A stretch of 64,000 bases of DNA from positions 930,001 through 994,000 of the forward strand of contig NZ_JAHDTI010000003.1 in the NCBI RefSeq assembly GCF_018531495.1. The letters are read 5' to 3'. Positions 2,508 to 11,570 of this stretch are shown here, one piece after another. The notes below the pieces were generated by a model. That model did no database searches. It had not been told where the DNA came from and saw nothing but the letters and a program-made list of their open reading frames with translations. The DNA comes from Nonomuraea sediminis. GTDB lineage: Bacteria; Actinomycetota; Actinomycetes; Streptosporangiales; Streptosporangiaceae. The position numbers were made by a program, and so were the translations under genes. The first letter of the stretch is position 1; each line of letters starts with the position of its first letter.

Positions 2508-3002
2508 TCAAACAGCCGCATGAAGCCAGCGGACAGGCGCGCCGTCGCCGGCGTAGCGGAAGGGCTCGAGCTCCTCGTCCCAGGGGCGGCCGAGCATCCT
2601 GTCCAGCTCGTCCTCCAGTGAGCAGCGGCCCTGGGCGGACATCAGCATGACCGTGCGCAGCCTGTCCTCGGGGATCATGATGTCGCCCGCCGCGCCGATG
2701 ACCGCGCTGAAGGCGCCGAGCGTGGGCGTGTAGGCGTGGCGGGAGCCGTCGACTCCCTGCGAGGCGTCCTCGGTGATCTCGAACCTGATGCGCTGCCAGC
2801 CCATGAGGGAGGACGTGATGGCGGCTGCGATGCCGGGGCGACCCTCCCACTCCGCCTGCGCGCGCACCACGTTGGGCGCGGCTGGTTGCGGCGTCCACGT
2901 CAGGTCGACAGGCACGCCGAGGACACCCGCGACCGCCCATTCGATATGAGGGCACAGCGCGGGCTGAGCCGAGTGGACGTAGAGCACGCCACGAGCAGAC
3001 AC
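2508..3002 (-). CDS. DUF3145 family protein
   Basis: 164-residue cytosolic protein of the actinobacterial DUF3145 family, beginning SARGVLYVHSAQPAL after the initiator. It is typically encoded next to the FAS-II genes, as here, but its biochemical function is unknown to me. The GTG at 3002 is preferred because GGGAGG sits five bases upstream in the transcript and it gives the family's usual length; an in-frame extension to 3062 lacks this support. It converges on the fab-acc operon terminator. Confidence 0.85.
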   Translation of the reverse strand: MSARGVLYVHSAQPALCPHIEWAVAGVLGVPVDLTWTPQPAAPNVVRAQAEWEGRPGIAAAITSSLMGWQRIRFEITEDASQGVDGSRHAYTPTLGAFSAVIGAAGDIMIPEDRLRTVMLMSAQGRCSLEDELDRMLGRPWDEELEPFRYAGDGAPVRWLHAAV

Positions 3003-3176
3003 CGGACCTCCCGATCGGTACGAGGTGCGCCTTCCCCAACGGCCTCGCCCCAGGATGATCACAAGTGACTAGGGAGAGACTACCGTCGGTCGCTATCCGA
3101 CACCAGAGGGGGGCCATACCAAGTTGTTGCGAAGGTGACACGTGACACACGGACGATCGCGGAAAGATACCGCCTC

Positions 3177-4175
3177 ATGGACCTCCAATCCGTCGGCGAG
3201 GCGCTCATCCGGCCAGGCCAGCTGCTGACCGACCGCAGCGCCCTGTCCGCGACCGCCCGCTGGACCCAGGCCGTGGCGGAGGCGGACGGCTTCTGCGTGA
3301 TCCGTCTGACGCCCGGTGTCGACCCGTGCGAACTGGCGGTGGATCTGCGGGAGAAGGGGTTCCGCGCCTCGCCCAACCACGTACTCGCCGGGCAGCCGCT
3401 GTTCTTCGGCGGGCCCGCCTCGCGGCCCTTCCCCACGCCCAAGATCGCCTTCAAACCGGGCAGGGACCGCACCTCCGCCGTGGTCGCGCTGCTCGACACC
3501 GGCGTGGCCGAGCACCCGTGGTGGTCGGGCAGCCGCTGGTACCGCAACCTCGGCAAGGAGGCGGCCGACGCCTCCGAGGGCGCCCAGGCCGGGCACGGCA
3601 CGTTCATCGCCGGGCTGCTGCTGCGCGCGGCGCCGGGAGCCGTGCTGAAGGTGTCCCGGGTGCTCGACGGCGACGGCGTGGGCGACGAGGCCGGCGTGGT
3701 GCGCGCGCTCAACCGGATGCGCGAGCGCCCGCCCCAGGTGCTCAACCTGTCCTTCGGCTGCCACAGCTTCGACGACAGGCCGCCGCCGCTGCTGGCCGAC
3801 GCGCTGGGAGCCCTCTCCGACACGGTCGCCGTCGCCTGCGCGGGGAACACCGCCTCCGACCGGCCGTTCTGGCCCGCCGCGCTGCCGGGGGTCGTCGGCG
3901 TGGGGGCGCTGGACGCCGCCGGGGAGCGCAGGGCGCCGTTCTCCGGCTTCGGGCGGTGGGTGGACGCCTGGGCTCCCGGCGAGTGGCTGACCAGCAGCTT
4001 CCCCGGGTTCTCCGGCTACGCGGCGTGGAGCGGGACCTCCTTCGCCACCGCGCTGGTCGCCGGGGCCGTGGCGGCACGGGCCGGTGACCGTACGGCCAAG
4101 CAGGCGGCGGAGGACTTGATGCGGGACTCCCGGCAAATTCCCGATCTGGGGGTTGCCATCCCGTGGACTCTGTAG
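3177..4175 (+). CDS. S8 family subtilisin-like serine peptidase, cytosolic
   Basis: 332-residue subtilase with the full catalytic triad: Asp107 (ALLDTGVAEHP), His140 (GHGTFIAG) and Ser288 (SGTSFATALVAG), plus a likely oxyanion Asn in CAGNTAS. No signal peptide or membrane segment is seen at the chosen ATG, so it should act inside the cell, unlike most subtilases. The start at 3177 has GGAAAG upstream; a longer GTG start at 3135 is possible. The first ~100 residues are not a recognised inhibitor propeptide. It lies 74 bp upstream of a sigma factor and three genes from a CHAT protease on the same strand, so the genes are probably one functional unit. Substrate unknown. Confidence 0.88.
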   Translation: MDLQSVGEALIRPGQLLTDRSALSATARWTQAVAEADGFCVIRLTPGVDPCELAVDLREKGFRASPNHVLAGQPLFFGGPASRPFPTPKIAFKPGRDRTSAVVALLDTGVAEHPWWSGSRWYRNLGKEAADASEGAQAGHGTFIAGLLLRAAPGAVLKVSRVLDGDGVGDEAGVVRALNRMRERPPQVLNLSFGCHSFDDRPPPLLADALGALSDTVAVACAGNTASDRPFWPAALPGVVGVGALDAAGERRAPFSGFGRWVDAWAPGEWLTSSFPGFSGYAAWSGTSFATALVAGAVAARAGDRTAKQAAEDLMRDSRQIPDLGVAIPWTL

Positions 4176-4249
4176 AGTTTACGCTCAGTCCTCGGCCCAT
4201 CACGAGGAGGCAGGATCGCCTCCCGTGGCGCACGGCGAAGGAGGCCCGC

Positions 4250-4771
4250 ATGCGCGATCCAGCGGTACTGCTCGACGCGGCGGCCGACGGCGACCATGCG
4301 GCGTGGGTCGAGCTGACCAACCGGTTCGGTCCTCGCCTGTGGGCCGCTGTCCGCGCGTGCGGGCTCGGCGAGGCCGACGCGGCGGACGCCGTGCAGGGCG
4401 CCTGGCTGCGGCTGCTCGAAAATCTTCACACGATCAAGGATCCGGCGGGCGTCGGCGCCTGGCTCACCACCACGGCACGGCGCGAAGCGCTGCTGATCCT
4501 CCGGAAGGAAGTGCCCGGGCTCCCTTCCTACCTACCGGTGTCAGAACCGGATCCCGCCGCCGAGGTCCTCGACGCCGACACCGGCCAGAGGCTGTGGCAG
4601 GCGGTCTCCTCTCTCCACGAGCCATGCCGGTCGATGTTGAAGCTGGTCGCCGTCGGCGAGCGGCAACTCGCGACACGGTTGGGGCTCCCACCAGGCAGTG
4701 TCGGGCCCACCCGGGCTCGCTGCCTTGAACGGCTGCGCACCCTGATCTCACCACAGGAGACGGTGCAATGA
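4250..4771 (+). CDS. ECF-type RNA polymerase sigma factor
   Basis: 173-residue sigma-70 family protein with only two domains: region 2 at about residues 7-85 (promoter -10 recognition and core binding; ADAVQGAWLRLLENL is the region 2 core) and region 4 at about 115-165 (LATRLGLPPGSVGPTRARCLERL helix-turn-helix, -35 recognition). The ATG at 4250 is chosen because GAAGGAGG ends seven bases before it; an upstream in-frame start at 4163 lacks one. The stop overlaps the next start (ATGA, 4768-4771). It likely directs expression of its own operon or a stress regulon; target promoters cannot be inferred. Confidence 0.88.
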   Translation: MRDPAVLLDAAADGDHAAWVELTNRFGPRLWAAVRACGLGEADAADAVQGAWLRLLENLHTIKDPAGVGAWLTTTARREALLILRKEVPGLPSYLPVSEPDPAAEVLDADTGQRLWQAVSSLHEPCRSMLKLVAVGERQLATRLGLPPGSVGPTRARCLERLRTLISPQETVQ

Positions 4772-5214
4772 GCAACGACGAGTATCTGCTGGCGGCGCTC
4801 CGGCTCGCCGCCGGGAACGATCCGATTCCCGCGCACGTGTCCGCCACGGCGCGCAACACGTTCGCGCTGCGGGTGCCCCACGCGGTCACCGCCACGCCCG
4901 TCGAGTCCCCCTCCGGGGGCGGCGTCCGCGGGGGCTCCGGGCCGCGCCTGATCCGCTTCTCGGCCGCCGACCTCGTCTTCGACCTGGAGGTCAGCGTCGG
5001 CGACGGGCTCATCGACATCGCGGGGCAGGTCTCTCCGCCGCCCGGGGAGGGCGCCCACGTCGACGTCCGCACGCCGCATCTCACGCTCTCCCGGCCGCTC
5101 GGGCTGACCGGGCAGTTCGCCGCTACCGGACTGCCGCCTGGGTGGCTCAGCGTCGTCTGCCATCGGCGTGATCACGCGCCTGTCCAGACCCGGTGGGTGC
5201 GTATACGCCCGTGA
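4768..5214 (+). CDS. small beta-rich protein coupled to the sigma factor; possible antagonist
   Basis: 148 residues, no recognised enzymatic motif. The first ~40 residues are helical and resemble the start of actinobacterial sigma-associated proteins (LLAALRLAAGNDPIPAHV), followed by a Gly/Pro linker and a domain of alternating beta strands (about residues 58-148). It has no membrane segment, signal peptide or zinc-binding HxxxCxxC motif, so it is not a classical ZAS anti-sigma factor. Its start overlaps the sigma stop (ATGA) and its stop overlaps the CHAT start (GTGA), implying equimolar coupled synthesis. A sigma antagonist or a CHAT substrate are both reasonable guesses and neither is shown. 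Confidence 0.6.
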   Translation: MSNDEYLLAALRLAAGNDPIPAHVSATARNTFALRVPHAVTATPVESPSGGGVRGGSGPRLIRFSAADLVFDLEVSVGDGLIDIAGQVSPPPGEGAHVDVRTPHLTLSRPLGLTGQFAATGLPPGWLSVVCHRRDHAPVQTRWVRIRP

Positions 5215-7973
5215 CGGCCGAGAAGACCCCGTCGAACCGCCCGCGGCAGACCGCTGCGGGGTCCTTCGCGCTGCCCAAGGCGTCCTCTCCCGCTCCTGGC
5301 TCGTCCGTGCCCGCCGCGCGCCGGTCCTCCTCGGACGCCCACCCGCCTGATGCGCCTGCCGAGATCTCCACGCCAGGCTTCGACCTTCCCGGGTCCCCGC
5401 GTATTCCTTCGGCGCGCACCTCGACCGACGAGCCGGACGTGGGGCCGCCTGCCCGCTCCCGGACAGAAGCGTCGGCGGGGCTGGTGGGGGCCGCGGAGAT
5501 GGCGGTCGTGCGGGCGATCATCGATCCGCCGAAGGCGCTGCGTGAGGCCCGCGCCGTCCTGGCGCGCGCAGAACGCGAGCGGGACGTCGAGGCCGCCGTG
5601 GTGGCGCTGCGCGGGATGGCGCTGGCCGCCAGGGAACTGGGCGACCTGCACGGCGCCGAGCGGCACCTGCGGCGGGCGATCGCCACGCAGGGCGCCCCCG
5701 CCGAGCGCGTCGCGCAGGCCAGGCTGTCGCTCGTCACGGTCAGGACCGAGCGCGGACACCCGCTGCAGGCGCTCAGGGTGGCGGCGCTGGCCTGGGCCTA
5801 CCTGTCGCCGCTCGACCGGGCCAAGCTCGACACGCAGCGCGCCGTCGCGCTGGCCCACCTGGGCCGCCACGTCGAGGCCGTGGCCGCGTGCGACCGTTCG
5901 CTGGAGGCTCTCGCGGCGGCGCCGGCCAGCATCGACAACCGGCGGTTCCTGGCGGGCGGCCTGCTCAACCGGGGCCTGGTGCACGCCTACCGCGGCGACT
6001 GGGACACCGCGCTGACCGACATCACCGCCTGCCGCGAGATCTCCGCCGAGGCGGGCCTCGACTACCTCGGCCGGCTCGCCGCCGCCAACCTGCCCTTCCT
6101 CGCGGTACGGCGGGGCGACCTGGCGACCGCGTTCGCCCGGTACCGCGAGGCGGAGGACACGCTGTTCGGCTTCCCCGAGCGCCTGGCCACGATGCGGGCC
6201 GACTTCGCCGGGGCGCTGCTGGCCGCCCATCTGCCCGGCGAGGCCAGGGCCATGCTGAGCCTGGCCGTACCCGATCTGGAGGCGGCAGGCGCGCATGTCG
6301 CGCTGGCCGAGGCGAGGCTGAAGCTGGCCCAGGTCGAGCTGCTCACCGGCGATGCCAGGCAGGCGCTGGCGGTGGCGCGGCGCGCCGCCCGGGACCTGGC
6401 GGGTCAGGATCGCGACGCGTGGCTGCCGCTGGCCGCCGAGGTCGTGCTGCGGGCCCGGCTGGATCTGGAGGAGCACACCGGCGCGCTCCTCGACGAGCTG
6501 GTGACCTGCGCCGACGAGCTGGAGTCCGAGTCCGCCCACGTCGCGGCCGCCGCGGCGCTGCGGCTGGTGGCGGCCGAGGTGGCGCTGGAGCTGGACGACC
6601 ATCCCACCGCTTCCGCCCAGCTCGACCGGCTGATCTGCGACGACCGGCATCGCGAGGCCGCGCCCCGTGACGGTTCCACGCCGTTGGCCTCCGCGGCCCA
6701 GGCCGCCCATCTGGACCGGCCGTCCTCGCAGGTGCCCGCGCTGGTCAGGCAGCACGCGCTGGCGCTGGAGGCGGCCCTGCAGGAGGACACGGCCAGCGCC
6801 TTCCGCGCGGTGCGCGACGGGCTGGCCGAGGTGGGATGCCAGGTGGAGGCGTTCGAGGACCCGGCGCTGCGGGCTCATGTGGCGCGGGCGGGCGAGCGGC
6901 TGGCCTCCTTCGGGCTCGGGCTGGCGATCCACGGCGGGCTGGCCGAAGAGGTCTTCGAATGGGCCGAACGCTGGCGGGCCGTCGCGTCCTCCTCCGGCCC
7001 CGGCGTCTCCGACCTCTGCCGGGTACGGCAGGCGCTGGGCGACGCGGCGCTGGTGGAGTACATGGTCGACGGTGGCCGCCTGCTGGCGGTGGCGATCACC
7101 TCGCACGGCATCGCGCTGCGGCGGCTCGGGGCGGTGGACGAGGTCACCGACGCGGTCGTCCAACTCCGTTACGCCATGCGGCGCACCAGCCTGCGCGACG
7201 CCACGCACGCCGCCTCCCACGTGGCGGCCGCGGCCCGTGAGGTCGAACGGCTCGTGCTCGGGCCGCTGCGGGCGGAGCTCGACGGCCGGGAACTGGTGGT
7301 GGTGCCCGCCGGTCCGCTGCACACGCTGCCGTGGGCGGCCCTGCCGTACCTGCACGACAGGCCGGTGAGCGTGACGGCGAGCGCGGCCGGGTGGCTGCGG
7401 GCGCGTTCGGCCGTGACGCCGCGGGTGGCGCCGCTGGTGCTCGGGGCTTTCGGGCCCGGGCTGGAGTACGCGCAGGCCGAGGTGGATCACGTGGTCGGCG
7501 GGTATGCGGGCGGGGCCGTGGTGCCCGGGCGGCGCGCGGACGTCCTCGCCGGGCTGGCCAGGGCGGACGTCTTCCACCTGGCGGCACACGGCGTCTTCGA
7601 CTCGCGCAGCCCGCTGCTGTCGGGGATCACGCTGGATGACGGCCCGCTCATGGCCTACGACCTGCTGCGCCTGCCCAGGACCGCCGGCCTGGTCGTGCTG
7701 TCGTCCTGCGACTCGGGCATGGCCCGCACCCCCGCCGAGGGCGCGCCGCTGGGCCTGGCGGGAACATTCCTGTCACGCGGCACGTCCTGCGTCGTGGCCG
7801 GCATGATCCCGGTCCGCGACGACGAGGCCCTGGCGGTCATGACCCTCTTCCACGAACTCCTCGCCGCCGGCCAACCCCCCGCCCACGCCCTCGCCACCGC
7901 CTCCACCAAAACCACCGTCCAGGCCTTCACCTGCTTCGGCGCCGCCGACCTCCCCATAACATCCCCCTCCTAA
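5211..7973 (+). CDS. TPR-repeat CHAT domain (caspase-like) protease
   Basis: 920 residues. A low-complexity Pro/Ser/Thr region (about 1-95) leads into a long series of TPR-like helical repeats (about 95-560) and a C-terminal CHAT domain. The CHAT catalytic pair is intact: His793 in FHLAAHGVFDSRSPLLSG and Cys833 in VVLSSCDSGMA. CHAT (caspase HetF associated with TPRs) peptidases are clan CD cysteine proteases that usually act in stress or conflict signalling. The GTG start at 5211 is chosen because it overlaps the preceding stop as GTGA; an in-frame GTG at 5193 also exists. Likely cytosolic. Presumably the TPR array senses a partner and activates the protease on a substrate such as its operon neighbours. 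Confidence 0.88.
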   Translation: MTAEKTPSNRPRQTAAGSFALPKASSPAPGSSVPAARRSSSDAHPPDAPAEISTPGFDLPGSPRIPSARTSTDEPDVGPPARSRTEASAGLVGAAEMAVVRAIIDPPKALREARAVLARAERERDVEAAVVALRGMALAARELGDLHGAERHLRRAIATQGAPAERVAQARLSLVTVRTERGHPLQALRVAALAWAYLSPLDRAKLDTQRAVALAHLGRHVEAVAACDRSLEALAAAPASIDNRRFLAGGLLNRGLVHAYRGDWDTALTDITACREISAEAGLDYLGRLAAANLPFLAVRRGDLATAFARYREAEDTLFGFPERLATMRADFAGALLAAHLPGEARAMLSLAVPDLEAAGAHVALAEARLKLAQVELLTGDARQALAVARRAARDLAGQDRDAWLPLAAEVVLRARLDLEEHTGALLDELVTCADELESESAHVAAAAALRLVAAEVALELDDHPTASAQLDRLICDDRHREAAPRDGSTPLASAAQAAHLDRPSSQVPALVRQHALALEAALQEDTASAFRAVRDGLAEVGCQVEAFEDPALRAHVARAGERLASFGLGLAIHGGLAEEVFEWAERWRAVASSSGPGVSDLCRVRQALGDAALVEYMVDGGRLLAVAITSHGIALRRLGAVDEVTDAVVQLRYAMRRTSLRDATHAASHVAAAAREVERLVLGPLRAELDGRELVVVPAGPLHTLPWAALPYLHDRPVSVTASAAGWLRARSAVTPRVAPLVLGAFGPGLEYAQAEVDHVVGGYAGGAVVPGRRADVLAGLARADVFHLAAHGVFDSRSPLLSGITLDDGPLMAYDLLRLPRTAGLVVLSSCDSGMARTPAEGAPLGLAGTFLSRGTSCVVAGMIPVRDDEALAVMTLFHELLAAGQPPAHALATASTKTTVQAFTCFGAADLPITSPS

Positions 7974-7985
7974 CACCCCGGCCTT

Positions 7986-8125
7986 GTAAGGCGGTGAAGC
8001 GGGACCGTGGTGCCCGGAGAACGAAGCGTCGTGGCGGTGGGCACTGGCATCGACTCGCCGGAAGCGCCGGGCGCGGGTCCTCAGCCGGAGTACGGCGGGC
8101 GGCCGGTGGCGGCGGCCCGCCGTAC
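7986..8125 (-). repeat. MITE-like intergenic repeat, copy 1
   Basis: 140-bp copy of the dispersed repeat, reversed relative to the copy at 10180. Its right end is GGCCCGCCGTAC (8114-8125) and its left end a decayed GTAAGGCGG. The body contains the family core, which reads GGCGCTTCCGGCGAGTCGAT on the minus strand. Behind it (8121-8177) a 19-bp unit with ACAAGATGAAGCCC is repeated about three times. The gap 7974-8195 holds nothing else. Confidence 0.75.
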
Positions 8126-8195
8126 AAAATCAAGCCCTCCGCACAAGATGAAGCCCTCGGCACAAGATGAAGCCCCCGGCACTAAGAAAAGGGAA

Positions 8196-8975
8196 TCAGC
8201 CTGTGGCGACCGGGCGGGTCGGGTCGGATACCCAGTTGGACCAGGAGCCGACGTAGAGGGCGGCGGGGAGGCCGGCGACCTCGAGGGCGAGGACCTCGTG
8301 GGCGGCCGTGACGCCGGAGCCGCAGTAGGCGCCGACGCGGTCACCGGCGCCCAGCGCGGTGAAGCGGTCGCGCAGCGTCCGCGAGGACAGGAAGCGGCCG
8401 TCAGGGCCGAGGTTCTCGGTGGTGGGCGCGCTGACCGCGCCGGGGACGTGGCCCGCGACCGGGTCGATCGGCTCCACCTCGCCCCGGTAGCGCTCCCCCG
8501 CCCGGGCGTCGAACAGCGTCCCGGCGGCCGCGAGGGCGGCGGCCTCGTCGGCGGTCAGGATCGGCATGCCGCCGGGCCTGGCGGTGAAGTCGCCCTCGGC
8601 GATCTCCGGCTCGTCCTGGACCAGCGGGCCCTGCAGGCCGCCGTCGAGTACGCGGACGTCCTGGTGGCCGAAGTACCGCAGCGTCCACCAGGCGCGGGCG
8701 GCGAACAGGTTGCCCTGGTCGTCGTAGACGACGACGCGGCGGCCGTTCGACACGCCGAGGCGGCGCATCGCGGCCTGGAAGCTCGCCGCGTCGGGCAGCG
8801 GGTGCCTGCCGTCGGGGCCGGGCGGCGCGGCCAGGTCGGCGTCGAGGTCGCAGAAGACCGCGCCGGGGATGTGACCTTCGAGGTAGAGCCCGTGCGCGGG
8901 CGGCCCGCCGAGCCGGTAGCGGACGTCGAGCAGGGTCGCGTCGCCGAGGTCGTCGAGCGTGATCAGCGGGCTCAT
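8196..8975 (-). CDS. sseA: sulfurtransferase, 3-mercaptopyruvate type
   Basis: 259-residue protein with two rhodanese domains; the N-terminal one is inactive and the C-terminal one carries the catalytic Cys218 in the loop CGSGVTA. That loop is characteristic of 3-mercaptopyruvate sulfurtransferases, whereas thiosulfate sulfurtransferases usually have CRKGVT. It moves sulfane sulfur from mercaptopyruvate to a thiol or cyanide acceptor in the cytosol. Its start overlaps the stop of the phosphodiesterase gene (TGA at 8972-8974 inside the ATGA), so the two are translationally coupled. Confidence 0.88.
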   Translation of the reverse strand: MSPLITLDDLGDATLLDVRYRLGGPPAHGLYLEGHIPGAVFCDLDADLAAPPGPDGRHPLPDAASFQAAMRRLGVSNGRRVVVYDDQGNLFAARAWWTLRYFGHQDVRVLDGGLQGPLVQDEPEIAEGDFTARPGGMPILTADEAAALAAAGTLFDARAGERYRGEVEPIDPVAGHVPGAVSAPTTENLGPDGRFLSSRTLRDRFTALGAGDRVGAYCGSGVTAAHEVLALEVAGLPAALYVGSWSNWVSDPTRPVATG

Positions 8976-10093
8976 CGGGTGGTTACCTCCAGGAAGGGCA
9001 CGTACTGCTCGGCCGCTGTCATCGATCCGTGGAAACCGGTGAACAGGGCCTCGATGCGGTGGCTCGCCGAGGCGGTGATGGCCAGGTCGGTGTACGGCAC
9101 GGCCACGACGTCACCGATCCGCTCCAGCCACGCGTCGCGGACCGTGGGTCCGAACCAGCCCGACTCGACCGCCTCCTGGCGCGACACCACCCAGGCGTCT
9201 GCGGCCAGGGTCTCACGCCAGGCCTCGAGTACGGCGGGTGCGGCGCCCTTTTCCGCGTAGACGTGTCGTGCCCTGGCCTCGCCGCCGAGCAGGGACACGC
9301 CCTCCATGAGCGCGGGGGTGGTGTCGGCGTCGATCTTGCGGGTGGCGTTGACCATGCCGTGGTCGGCGGTCACGTACAGGGCCGAGCCTGGTGGCAGGGC
9401 CTCGGCCAGGCGTTCGGCCATGCGGTCGACGATCTCCAGGTGGCGCAGCCACTCCTCGTCGCCCCAGCCGACCAGGTGGCCCGCGGCGTCGAGGTCACCG
9501 TAGTACACGGTGACGTGGGCGCGGGGTTCCTGGAGCGCGTGCCGTACGGCTGCAATGCGGTCGTCCACGGAGTCGGCGGGCAGGTAGCGGACGCCGCGGA
9601 AGACGGCCTCGGTCAGGCCGGTGCCCTCGAACTGGGCCGGTCCGACATATCCGGCGGCGATGCCGGCCGCGGCGGCGCGCTGGTAGACCGTGTCGGCGGG
9701 CTGCCACACCGCGGGATCCATCATCGCCCCGCCGGGCAGCGTCCAGCGCAGGCAGTTGAACAGGTGGCCCGCACCCGGGACGGCCAGCATCATGCCCAGC
9801 ATCCCGTGCTCGCCCGGCGCCATGCCCGTGCCAAGCGAGCACAGGCTCGTCACGGTCGTCGCGGGGAAGCCCGCGGTCAGCGTCCTGCCGTCCAGGCTCG
9901 CCAGGAACGGCGCCCTGTCGCCGTGAACCCGCAGCAACTCAGCGCCCAGCCCGTCGACCAGGAACACGCACACGCGATCGACGGCCGCCAGGCCGAGGGC
10001 GTTGCTCCCGCCTCCGCCCAGCGCGGCCAGCACAGACCCGGACGCATCGGCCAACGACCCCAACCCGTAACGCGGCACCACCGGCTCGCCCAT
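8972..10093 (-). CDS. nucleotide pyrophosphatase/phosphodiesterase family protein
   Basis: 373-residue member of the alkaline phosphatase superfamily, type I phosphodiesterase branch. Metal ligands and the nucleophile can be seen: Asp47 in CVFLVDGLG, Thr79/80 in GFPATTVTSL, the Asp/His pair in YGDLDAAGH, and VTADHGM near residue 255. The family hydrolyses phosphodiester or pyrophosphate bonds in nucleotides; the substrate is not predictable here. No signal peptide is visible, so it is probably cytosolic. First gene of a two-gene unit with the sulfurtransferase. Confidence 0.85.
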   Translation of the reverse strand: MGEPVVPRYGLGSLADASGSVLAALGGGGSNALGLAAVDRVCVFLVDGLGAELLRVHGDRAPFLASLDGRTLTAGFPATTVTSLCSLGTGMAPGEHGMLGMMLAVPGAGHLFNCLRWTLPGGAMMDPAVWQPADTVYQRAAAAGIAAGYVGPAQFEGTGLTEAVFRGVRYLPADSVDDRIAAVRHALQEPRAHVTVYYGDLDAAGHLVGWGDEEWLRHLEIVDRMAERLAEALPPGSALYVTADHGMVNATRKIDADTTPALMEGVSLLGGEARARHVYAEKGAAPAVLEAWRETLAADAWVVSRQEAVESGWFGPTVRDAWLERIGDVVAVPYTDLAITASASHRIEALFTGFHGSMTAAEQYVPFLEVTTR

Positions 10094-10179
10094 GCGCCGA
10101 TCCTAGCCCTGCTGTCCCGTTCCTTGACGAGCTCCCGCACGCACCTGACCAGCCCTCGCACGGCTTTGAGGAGCTTCTC

Positions 10180-10320
10180 GTACGGCGGGCCGCCGCCACC
10201 GGCCGCCCGCCACACTTCGGCTGAGGGCCCGCGCCCGGCGCTTCCGGCGAGTCGATGCCCCTTGCGCACCGTCACGGCGCATCGTTCTCCGGGCACCACG
10301 GTCCCCCTGGCCCGCCGTAC
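10180..10320 (+). repeat. MITE-like intergenic repeat, copy 2 (complete)
   Basis: 141 bp bounded by perfect 12-bp inverted ends, GTACGGCGGGCC (10180-10191) and GGCCCGCCGTAC (10309-10320). The body carries the conserved core GGCGCTTCCGGCGAGTCGAT. I see no obvious target-site duplication. Best reference copy in the window. Confidence 0.85.
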
Positions 10321-10456
10321 ATCTCCTCCCCAGCGCTGGGCCTGGCGTCGTCGTTGGGAAGCCGTGCAACGAGGCGCCGGTGCGGCGAGGAGGGGTGCGG
10401 CGGGGCTCGGCGCCATGCGGTCGGCGCGTGCGGGGAGTCGGGGTGAGGCACCCTGC

Positions 10457-10591
10457 GGTCGGCGAGCGCGCGAAGCGGGACGCGGTCGGCGAGCGCGCGA
10501 AGCGGGACGCGGTCGGCGAGCGCGCGAAGCGGGACGCGGTCGGCGAGCGCGCGAAGCGGGACGCGGTCGGCGGGCGCGAGAGGCGGGGTGA
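10457..10591 (+). repeat. 27-bp minisatellite
   Basis: Five head-to-tail copies, the first four nearly identical, starting at 10457, 10484, 10511, 10538 and 10565, unit beginning GGTCGGCGAGCGCGCGAAGC. The rest of the gap (10592-10758) is GC-rich with no gene that I can support. A reading frame runs through the array but is an artefact of the 27-bp (multiple of three) period. Confidence 0.9.
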
Positions 10592-10758
10592 GGCGCCGTG
10601 CGGGCGGCGGACGCGGGAGGCGAGGCCGGGCGGAGGACTACGCAGGCAGTGGGGGCGACGCGGATACGGGTCGGCCTGGTGGAGCGGGGGTGGCGGTGGG
10701 AAACGCGCGTGGGGGAGCGCCCGTCGGCGGGGTTGGGGGGAGGCCGCGTGAGGGGAGG

Positions 10759-11349
10759 TCAGGAGGCGGCGCGGGCGGTGGCTTCCGAGAGGGACTTGGC
10801 GAAGGCGAGGACGTGGGAGACCGCCTCGGGCCCGTCGGCGGCCTCGCTGACCCGGAGCGAGAGGTCGTCGGCCGTGATGGCGCCGGTGTAGCCGTGGTCG
10901 GCCTCGCAGTTCTCGTCGCCGCAGGTGGCGGGTTCGAGGTCGACGTGGGAGATGGCACCCCAGCCGATCGTGAGCGTGGCCTCGGTGGGCGCGACGCCGG
11001 GGACGTAGGAGGCCGGGTCCGGCACGACGCGCGTGACCGCGACGGACTGGATGCGGCTGAGCCTGACCGCCTCGGTGGTGGTGGAGGCGTGGGAGGTGGA
11101 CACGCCCTCGACTGCCGGGTGCTCGTCGGTGTGGCAGACCAGCAGCCTGGTGGCCGACAGGACCAGGACCGTGACGTGCCTGCGTACCTCCATCGCCGGG
11201 TCGAAGGTCGCCTCGTGGTGGACCACGAACGCTGTCACGGCCTCCTTGCCCAGCGCGGATTCGACCGCGTCGGTGACGAGGTCGGGGTAGTAGCCGCTGC
11301 GCTCGATCGCTTCGCGCAGGCCCGCAGCGGAGACTCGGGTTTCCCTCAT
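10759..11349 (-). CDS. DUF5998 family protein
   Basis: 196-residue cytosolic protein matching the actinobacterial DUF5998 family. It has a mixed alpha/beta core with HVTVLVLSATRLLVCHTDEH and a CGDENCEADH motif, which could bind a metal. The ATG at 11349 is chosen because GGATGGAG lies just upstream in the transcript; a longer start at 11388 lacks such a site. The family is widely conserved near the phosphodiesterase gene in actinomycetes, and its function is not known to me. Confidence 0.75.
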   Translation of the reverse strand: MRETRVSAAGLREAIERSGYYPDLVTDAVESALGKEAVTAFVVHHEATFDPAMEVRRHVTVLVLSATRLLVCHTDEHPAVEGVSTSHASTTTEAVRLSRIQSVAVTRVVPDPASYVPGVAPTEATLTIGWGAISHVDLEPATCGDENCEADHGYTGAITADDLSLRVSEAADGPEAVSHVLAFAKSLSEATARAAS

Positions 11350-11570
11350 GGCTCCATCCTGCCAGGACCGCGCAGTGCGCTCACCCACCGGACATAACGC
11401 TAGATAACATCTTTAATCCATATAACGCGGAATGGCCAAGCCAACAATTACCCGCCGCCGCCTCTTTCCCCGGTTTGTGATCAGGTGGAGCTGGCTATCG
11501 ATTAGGGCGGAGACCAGGCCTGTTGCACTGAGTGCGGGCATTCTCAACGAATATCCTCGGGGGAATTGAA

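Follow-up and report, generated by a model that had tools for sequence, protein, structure and literature searches.

Genes and features of the cassette

The locus described here lies in a 64,000-nucleotide stretch of DNA from the actinobacterium Nonomuraea sediminis (contig NZ_JAHDTI010000003.1, positions 930,001 to 994,000 of the forward strand), called the window below and numbered from its first nucleotide. Four open reading frames (ORFs) follow one another on the plus strand between positions 3177 and 7973. They encode a subtilase of the S8 family (S8), a sigma factor of the extracytoplasmic function (ECF) type, a small protein (SM), and a caspase-like protease with TPR and CHAT domains (CHAT). 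The features relevant to a possible protease-gated control of transcription are as follows.

3177-4175, plus strand: S8 subtilase, 332 amino acids (aa); Pfam Peptidase_S8, E = 1.8e-24, residues 101-299
3495-3497, 3594-3596 and 4038-4040, plus strand: codons of the S8 triad residues D107, H140 and S288
4173..4178, plus strand: TAGAGT, a TANNNT −10-like element overlapping the stop codon of S8; sigma and SM may have a separate promoter here
4250-4771, plus strand: ECF-type sigma factor, 173 aa, with sigma2 and sigma4 domains; Sigma70_r2, 2.6e-9; TIGR02937, 6.3e-12, above cut-off
4768-5214, plus strand: SM, 148 aa, proposed soluble anti-sigma factor on the basis of an AlphaFold2 (AF2) model, the upstream sigma gene and CarboxypepD_reg-like relatives
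4927-4929, plus strand: codon of SM Arg54, candidate protease site or docking residue, from its conservation and a linker with a predicted local distance difference test score (pLDDT) < 50
5211-7973, plus strand: TPR-CHAT caspase-like protease, 920 aa; Pfam CHAT, 2.2e-31; TPR_1 and TPR_12 above cut-off
7587-7589 and 7707-7709, plus strand: codons of CHAT residues H793 and C833

An earlier note on this DNA had numbered the catalytic residues of both proteases exactly right, and the single-strand arrangement it described, with an ATGA overlap between sigma and SM at 4768 and a GTGA overlap between SM and CHAT at 5211, is real. Its two-domain sigma factor is supported by the Sigma70_r2 match and by a homologue model that covers both sigma2 and sigma4; Pfam gave no region-4 match for this protein. 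The description of the subtilase as cytosolic is also reasonable, because none of the four proteins contains a segment with the hydrophobicity of a typical membrane helix (the highest mean over 19 residues on the Kyte-Doolittle scale is 1.48).

Both proteases look like working enzymes because their catalytic residues are conserved. The His and Cys of CHAT are present in all 86 non-gap rows of an 88-row alignment, and the D/H/S triad of S8 in all 82 aligned rows, the window included. CHAT carries TPR-like repeats within approximately residues 107-392, the last of them weak, followed by the CHAT domain at 674-900, and a phmmer search with this protein found no PDB sequence at E ≤ 0.1. The catalytic domain of S8 is preceded by about 100 residues in the window and by 96-145 across the window protein and the seven relatives scanned. 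Many of 29 aligned rows have an SPNHVL-like motif in this N-terminal part, which we take to be a propeptide. It is possible that S8 is a zymogen activated by CHAT.

Conservation and distribution

Within Nonomuraea, SM is present in 54 of 54 genomes, that of N. sediminis included, and it occurs in 69 of the 98 relatives overall. From named genomes, the SM search gave 22 loci, every one of them from Nonomuraea. Forty-five loci of the genus were retrieved by position (L062 and L087-L130; contig ends cut some of them). Sigma, SM and CHAT are present in every one and S8 in 44, with gene order and the use of a single strand identical throughout. One of them (L094) is without an S8 match, and in another (L062) S8 and sigma are separated by a gap of 770 base pairs (bp). 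Sigma and SM share the four-base ATGA overlap in 55 of 56 rows, these being all 55 rows from Nonomuraea, with the exception (L053) belonging to another genus; among pairs from outside the genus it occurs in 31 of 112. Coupled sigma and SM genes are thus a constant feature of the genus and a frequent but not constant one outside it. The overlap of the CHAT start with the SM stop is not conserved, being present in only 8 of the 56 rows.

Some Nonomuraea genomes also carry a second, diverged S8-sigma-SM cassette (L061, L063, L064 and L073-L083), and CHAT, where it was seen (all but L081), is located on the opposite strand in these copies. Plasmid carriage or mobile spread was considered and is not supported, with SM present in 1 of 72,556 records, an 11.85-Mb Nonomuraea replicon.

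A profile search for SM across the class yielded 114 places in 99 of 296 genomes, representing 42 of 105 genera. Eighty of these places were fetched, and the remaining 34 comprise 3 from the genus itself, 8 already in the set, and 23 that were left out (split pieces, weak hits and others). The 80 were combined with 34 further loci into a layout set, likewise of 114 loci and classified by profile, which includes the genus orthologue L062, several of the second Nonomuraea copies, and some loci ending at contig ends. In 111 of these loci the sigma gene immediately precedes SM on the same strand, in 112 it lies within 450 bp, and no fusion of the two into a single ORF occurs among the 114. CHAT is present in 87 loci (on the same strand in 48), S8 in 81, and all four parts in 73. 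The commonest layout places CHAT divergent from S8-sigma-SM (35 loci), and the layout of the window is second (25 loci). There are 13 loci that have CHAT without S8, 7 that have S8 without CHAT, and 20 that have neither, although for three of the last group (L166, L167 and L234) the contig is short or ends there. The expectation set beforehand in the earlier note, that the neighbourhood is conserved, holds in that the cassette recurs across genomes of the genus and the class. We consider it very probable that sigma and SM function as partners.

In each of the 20 genomes with a lone sigma-SM pair, CHAT is encoded elsewhere. The region around the unlinked CHAT was fetched for 11 of them, and S8 divergently adjoins CHAT in 10, the eleventh region meeting a contig end. 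On a profile specific for the CHAT of this system, the window protein scores 397 bits and the unlinked CHATs of 12 genomes score 281-369 bits; two other CHATs score 73 and 43 bits, and the two other CHATs of the window genome were unreported. By these scores, the unlinked proteins are of the same subfamily as the window CHAT. This assignment, together with the adjoining S8, indicates that there are two modules, sigma-SM and S8-CHAT, which are joined in the window and separable elsewhere.

Co-occurrence was assessed for SM and CHAT, with a limited number of candidates scored per genome, such that single misses are possible. Any CHAT at E ≤ 1e-10 was found in 155 of the 296 genomes, namely in 99 of the 99 with SM and in 56 of the 197 others. 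With the system-specific profile (E ≤ 1e-40) the number is 101, of which 99 have SM and two (G137 and G195) do not, and no genome has SM alone.

The TAGAGT element at 4173..4178 is conserved across Nonomuraea, and, as judged by eye, several further genera have a TANNNT-like sequence in the corresponding position. A scan for promoters of the TTGACA/TATAAT type returned no site in 2950-8300, TAGAGT included. A scan of the flanking proteins identified DUF3145, rhodanese, phosphodiesterase and DUF5998 proteins. Between the divergent DUF3145 gene (Pfam 3.4e-69) and S8, the segment 2995-3130 is more than 90% conserved at most positions of 53 aligned loci, 52 of which are from Nonomuraea, the window included. 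The idea of an RNA element upstream of S8 is not supported, since Rfam gave nothing at E ≤ 1 and shuffled sequences fold just as well (z 0.68); no Rfam family reached its cut-off anywhere in the window. Downstream of the cassette, at 8975-11388, are the phosphodiesterase and DUF5998 genes. They also flank an isolated sigma-SM pair from another family (L173, 8309-10051), and flanks of similar appearance are present at several other loci. These shared flanks suggest an ancestral chromosomal position of the cassette. A gene for a 1273-aa protein near the same isolated pair was examined as a candidate protease and matches NAGPA and Metallophos instead. A tandem array with a period of 27 bp (4.9 copies, 97% matches) lies at 10455-10587.

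A candidate protease-gated sigma switch

The SM protein of the window has no match in Pfam, NCBIfam or PADLOC at E ≤ 1. CarboxypepD_reg is matched at E ≤ 1 by 73 of the 78 members of the SM alignment, with a best value of 1.8e-5. The AF2 model of SM (pLDDT 86.5) predicts helices at residues 3-14 and 22-33, a disordered linker at 48-56, and a beta-sandwich at 60-146. The protein had been described as beta-rich, which is correct for the sandwich but does not account for the two helices at the start of the model. A structure search with SM by itself found no PDB match at E ≤ 0.001, and a profile search of PDB sequences with the SM alignment gave two chains that are not credible (E 1.1 and 1.3). 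One homologue (L058, 5865-7028) has a low-complexity insertion of about 240 residues inside its beta domain and reaches 392 aa in total. Arg54, located in the predicted linker, does not vary among the 78 aligned rows; 163 of 165 distinct SM proteins have the arginine, and the two exceptions, as aligned, carry an arginine nearby.

The sigma-SM arrangement was modelled with AF2 on the homologous locus L071, with a glycine in place of the stop codon so that the two proteins form one tethered chain. In the resulting model, sigma adopts a closed form, both domains of which can be aligned with ECF sigma structures, and this form resembles several anti-sigma-bound structures but not others. The closed form and the position of sigma directly upstream of SM lend some support to the earlier idea that SM holds the sigma factor, even though several anti-sigma structures are unlike the model. 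On balance, we somewhat favour the view that SM inhibits sigma.

Building on the four observed genes, their conservation and co-occurrence, their catalytic residues, the predicted fold and linker of SM, and the homologue model, we propose a soluble sigma switch gated by proteolysis, a reading in which our confidence is close to evenly balanced. The N-terminal helical hairpin of SM would bind the ECF sigma factor and hold sigma2 and sigma4 closed, leaving sigma unable to join RNA polymerase. TPR-CHAT would sense an intracellular signal, become active, and cut SM either directly or by activating S8. The exposed linker, close to the near-invariant Arg54, would be the likeliest place for the cut. 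The hairpin, parted from the beta-sandwich, would then be degraded, and the freed sigma factor would transcribe its regulon. By analogy with a TPR-CHAT protease discussed below, relief of inhibition through cleavage of SM by CHAT is a serious possibility that we rate slightly short of even, and participation of S8 in the cascade is more doubtful. If the proposal is true, Arg54 and a Cys833Ala variant of CHAT offer direct tests through a single residue and a catalytic mutant. Should SM prove to be the inhibitor and CHAT the protease that removes it, ordinary actinobacteria would offer a caspase-like protease whose substrate and output are defined.

Several observations weigh against this switch. 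The chains of SigE-RseA, AlgU-MucA, SigE-ChrR and BldN-RsbN align with the modelled sigma over sigma2 only, SigK fits it at 6.9 Å, and SigG1, which was crystallised without a separate anti-sigma factor, also aligns (136 residues, 4.4 Å). The closed form seen in the tethered homologue model may be an AF2 default. Coevolution between sigma and SM (166 pairs, effective sequence number 99) reveals no clear interface, and the SM helices are not enriched (0.36 versus 0.30). A cluster of contacts between sigma4 and the SM helices depends on list length (p 0.0025 for the top 25, 0.9975 for the top 15), used a block size chosen afterwards, and is given no weight. The association of SM with any CHAT (Fisher p 1.8e-38) is uncorrected for phylogeny, and the 13 loci that have CHAT with no S8 nearby mean that S8 may be dispensable or located elsewhere. 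Arg54 is retained in all 20 loci that are without a local S8 or CHAT, and this residue may bind sigma rather than be the cleavage site. Its retention disfavours a purely local role in cleavage and fits either action in trans or sigma binding.

Alternatively, there might be no anti-sigma factor, with the proteases degrading sigma itself, SM acting as the adaptor that delivers it to CHAT or S8, and a signal stopping the proteolysis. Proteolysis of sigma without an anti-sigma factor has been proposed for ECF54 in the part of PMC8999054 that treats this group, with the adaptor role of SM being added in the present analysis, and an adaptor fits the pairing of SM with sigma and its co-occurrence with CHAT equally well. 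However, the proteases would then have to be active already in the resting state, and the sigma factor of the tethered model has the shape seen in some anti-sigma complexes. Also, the TPR-CHAT protease in the relevant portion of PMC10028731 cuts an inhibitor, and sigma is what is released. We regard degradation of sigma as rather unlikely. It is unlikely, too, that the proteases are effectors whose transcription, as a cell-death or defence module, is controlled by a stress-sensing sigma-SM pair, perhaps with a signal bound by the SM beta-sandwich. CHAT and subtilase domains do occur in defence systems (with weak PADLOC matches here to BovA, 3.5e-5, and a subtilase, 1.8e-7), and CHAT often lies divergently from the sigma-SM pair or at an unlinked site, which is compatible with its being a regulated target. 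Yet S8-CHAT is kept as a unit of its own, with no sigma factor called beside it at the split loci examined, and the presence of SM in all 54 genomes of the genus searched is unlike a mobile defence island. The promoter scan, which returned no site, does not decide for or against this explanation.

Neighbourhood through inherited gene order, with unrelated functions, is very improbable. The surroundings are stable, with DUF3145 on one side and the phosphodiesterase and DUF5998 genes on the other, but the same sets recur with CHAT downstream, divergent or unlinked, and a dedicated CHAT is present in 99 of 99 genomes with SM. Co-occurrence that persists through such rearrangement largely contradicts an explanation by inherited order.

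Relation to known systems

The earlier note knew of no described system with these parts. That claim does not stand, because the gene context of ECF54 sigma factors, which includes carboxypeptidase, subtilase and CHAT proteins, has been published together with possible proteolytic control in place of an anti-sigma factor and an example from Geodermatophilus (PMC8999054, in its account of ECF54). The window shares with this group a two-domain ECF sigma factor (TIGR02937 above cut-off) with a subtilase and CHAT in its context. The cassette fits the ECF54 gene context, membership being judged by context rather than by an ECF54 sequence model. For the carboxypeptidase-domain part, the CarboxypepD_reg matches lie among the SM relatives, with none for the window copy. 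The published 'carboxypeptidase' is probably SM, which resembles a regulatory-like fold rather than an enzyme. A further difference is that the published account of ECF54 has proteases acting on sigma and no anti-sigma factor, whereas SM is here a candidate anti-sigma factor. If that is true, it revises the published view that ECF54 sigma factors are without one. Such clusters are widespread, with SM in 42 of the 105 sampled genera of the class, and the mechanism given in that account is a proposal only (PMC8999054).

In a literature search for prior description, PMC8999054 was the one paper, of those opened, to describe this gene context. Besides the probable identity of SM with the 'carboxypeptidase' part, the present analysis adds to the published account that SM constantly accompanies sigma, that S8 and CHAT form a separable module, that SM and CHAT co-occur almost perfectly, and that the linker carries a conserved arginine.

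EACC2-caspase proteins have been linked with ECF sigma factors and a TPR protein, and a transcriptional output has been proposed for them (PMC8195603, in the portion concerning these proteins). The common theme is a caspase-like protease tied to an ECF sigma factor, but the parts differ, being a DUF1822 TPR protein and EACC2 there, and TPR-CHAT, SM and a subtilase here. NepR and CnrY are two-helix anti-sigma factors. The modelled sigma is closed like their partners (5uxx and 4cxf) and the SM model starts with two helices, although SM continues into a C-terminal beta-sandwich and shows no membrane helix. This likeness is one of structural models, not of sequence.

The nearest mechanistic analogue is found in type III-E CRISPR systems, where the TPR-CHAT protease Csx29 is known from experiment to cut Csx30, the inhibitor of the ECF factor CASP-sigma (PMC10028731, in the part describing this circuit). 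Both sets contain a TPR-CHAT protease, an ECF sigma factor and a third protein, which in the CRISPR system is the protease-cut sigma inhibitor. We do not count the cassette as a member of that system. The window CHAT scores 17.3 bits against the Csx29 model NF041237, below the cut-off of 300; SM has only 148 aa, compared to residues up to 560 named for Csx30 in the same part of that paper; a subtilase is added; and a further difference is the presence of the window locus in 54 of the 54 members of its genus that were searched. We tentatively suggest that the cassette could be an actinobacterial, CRISPR-free and chromosomal counterpart of Csx29-Csx30-CASP-sigma, with S8 as a zymogen relay, a soluble hairpin anti-sigma factor cut at its linker arginine, separable modules acting in trans, and a caspase-like signal passed on as transcription. 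If this is true, the CRISPR circuit and the present one could share an older design.

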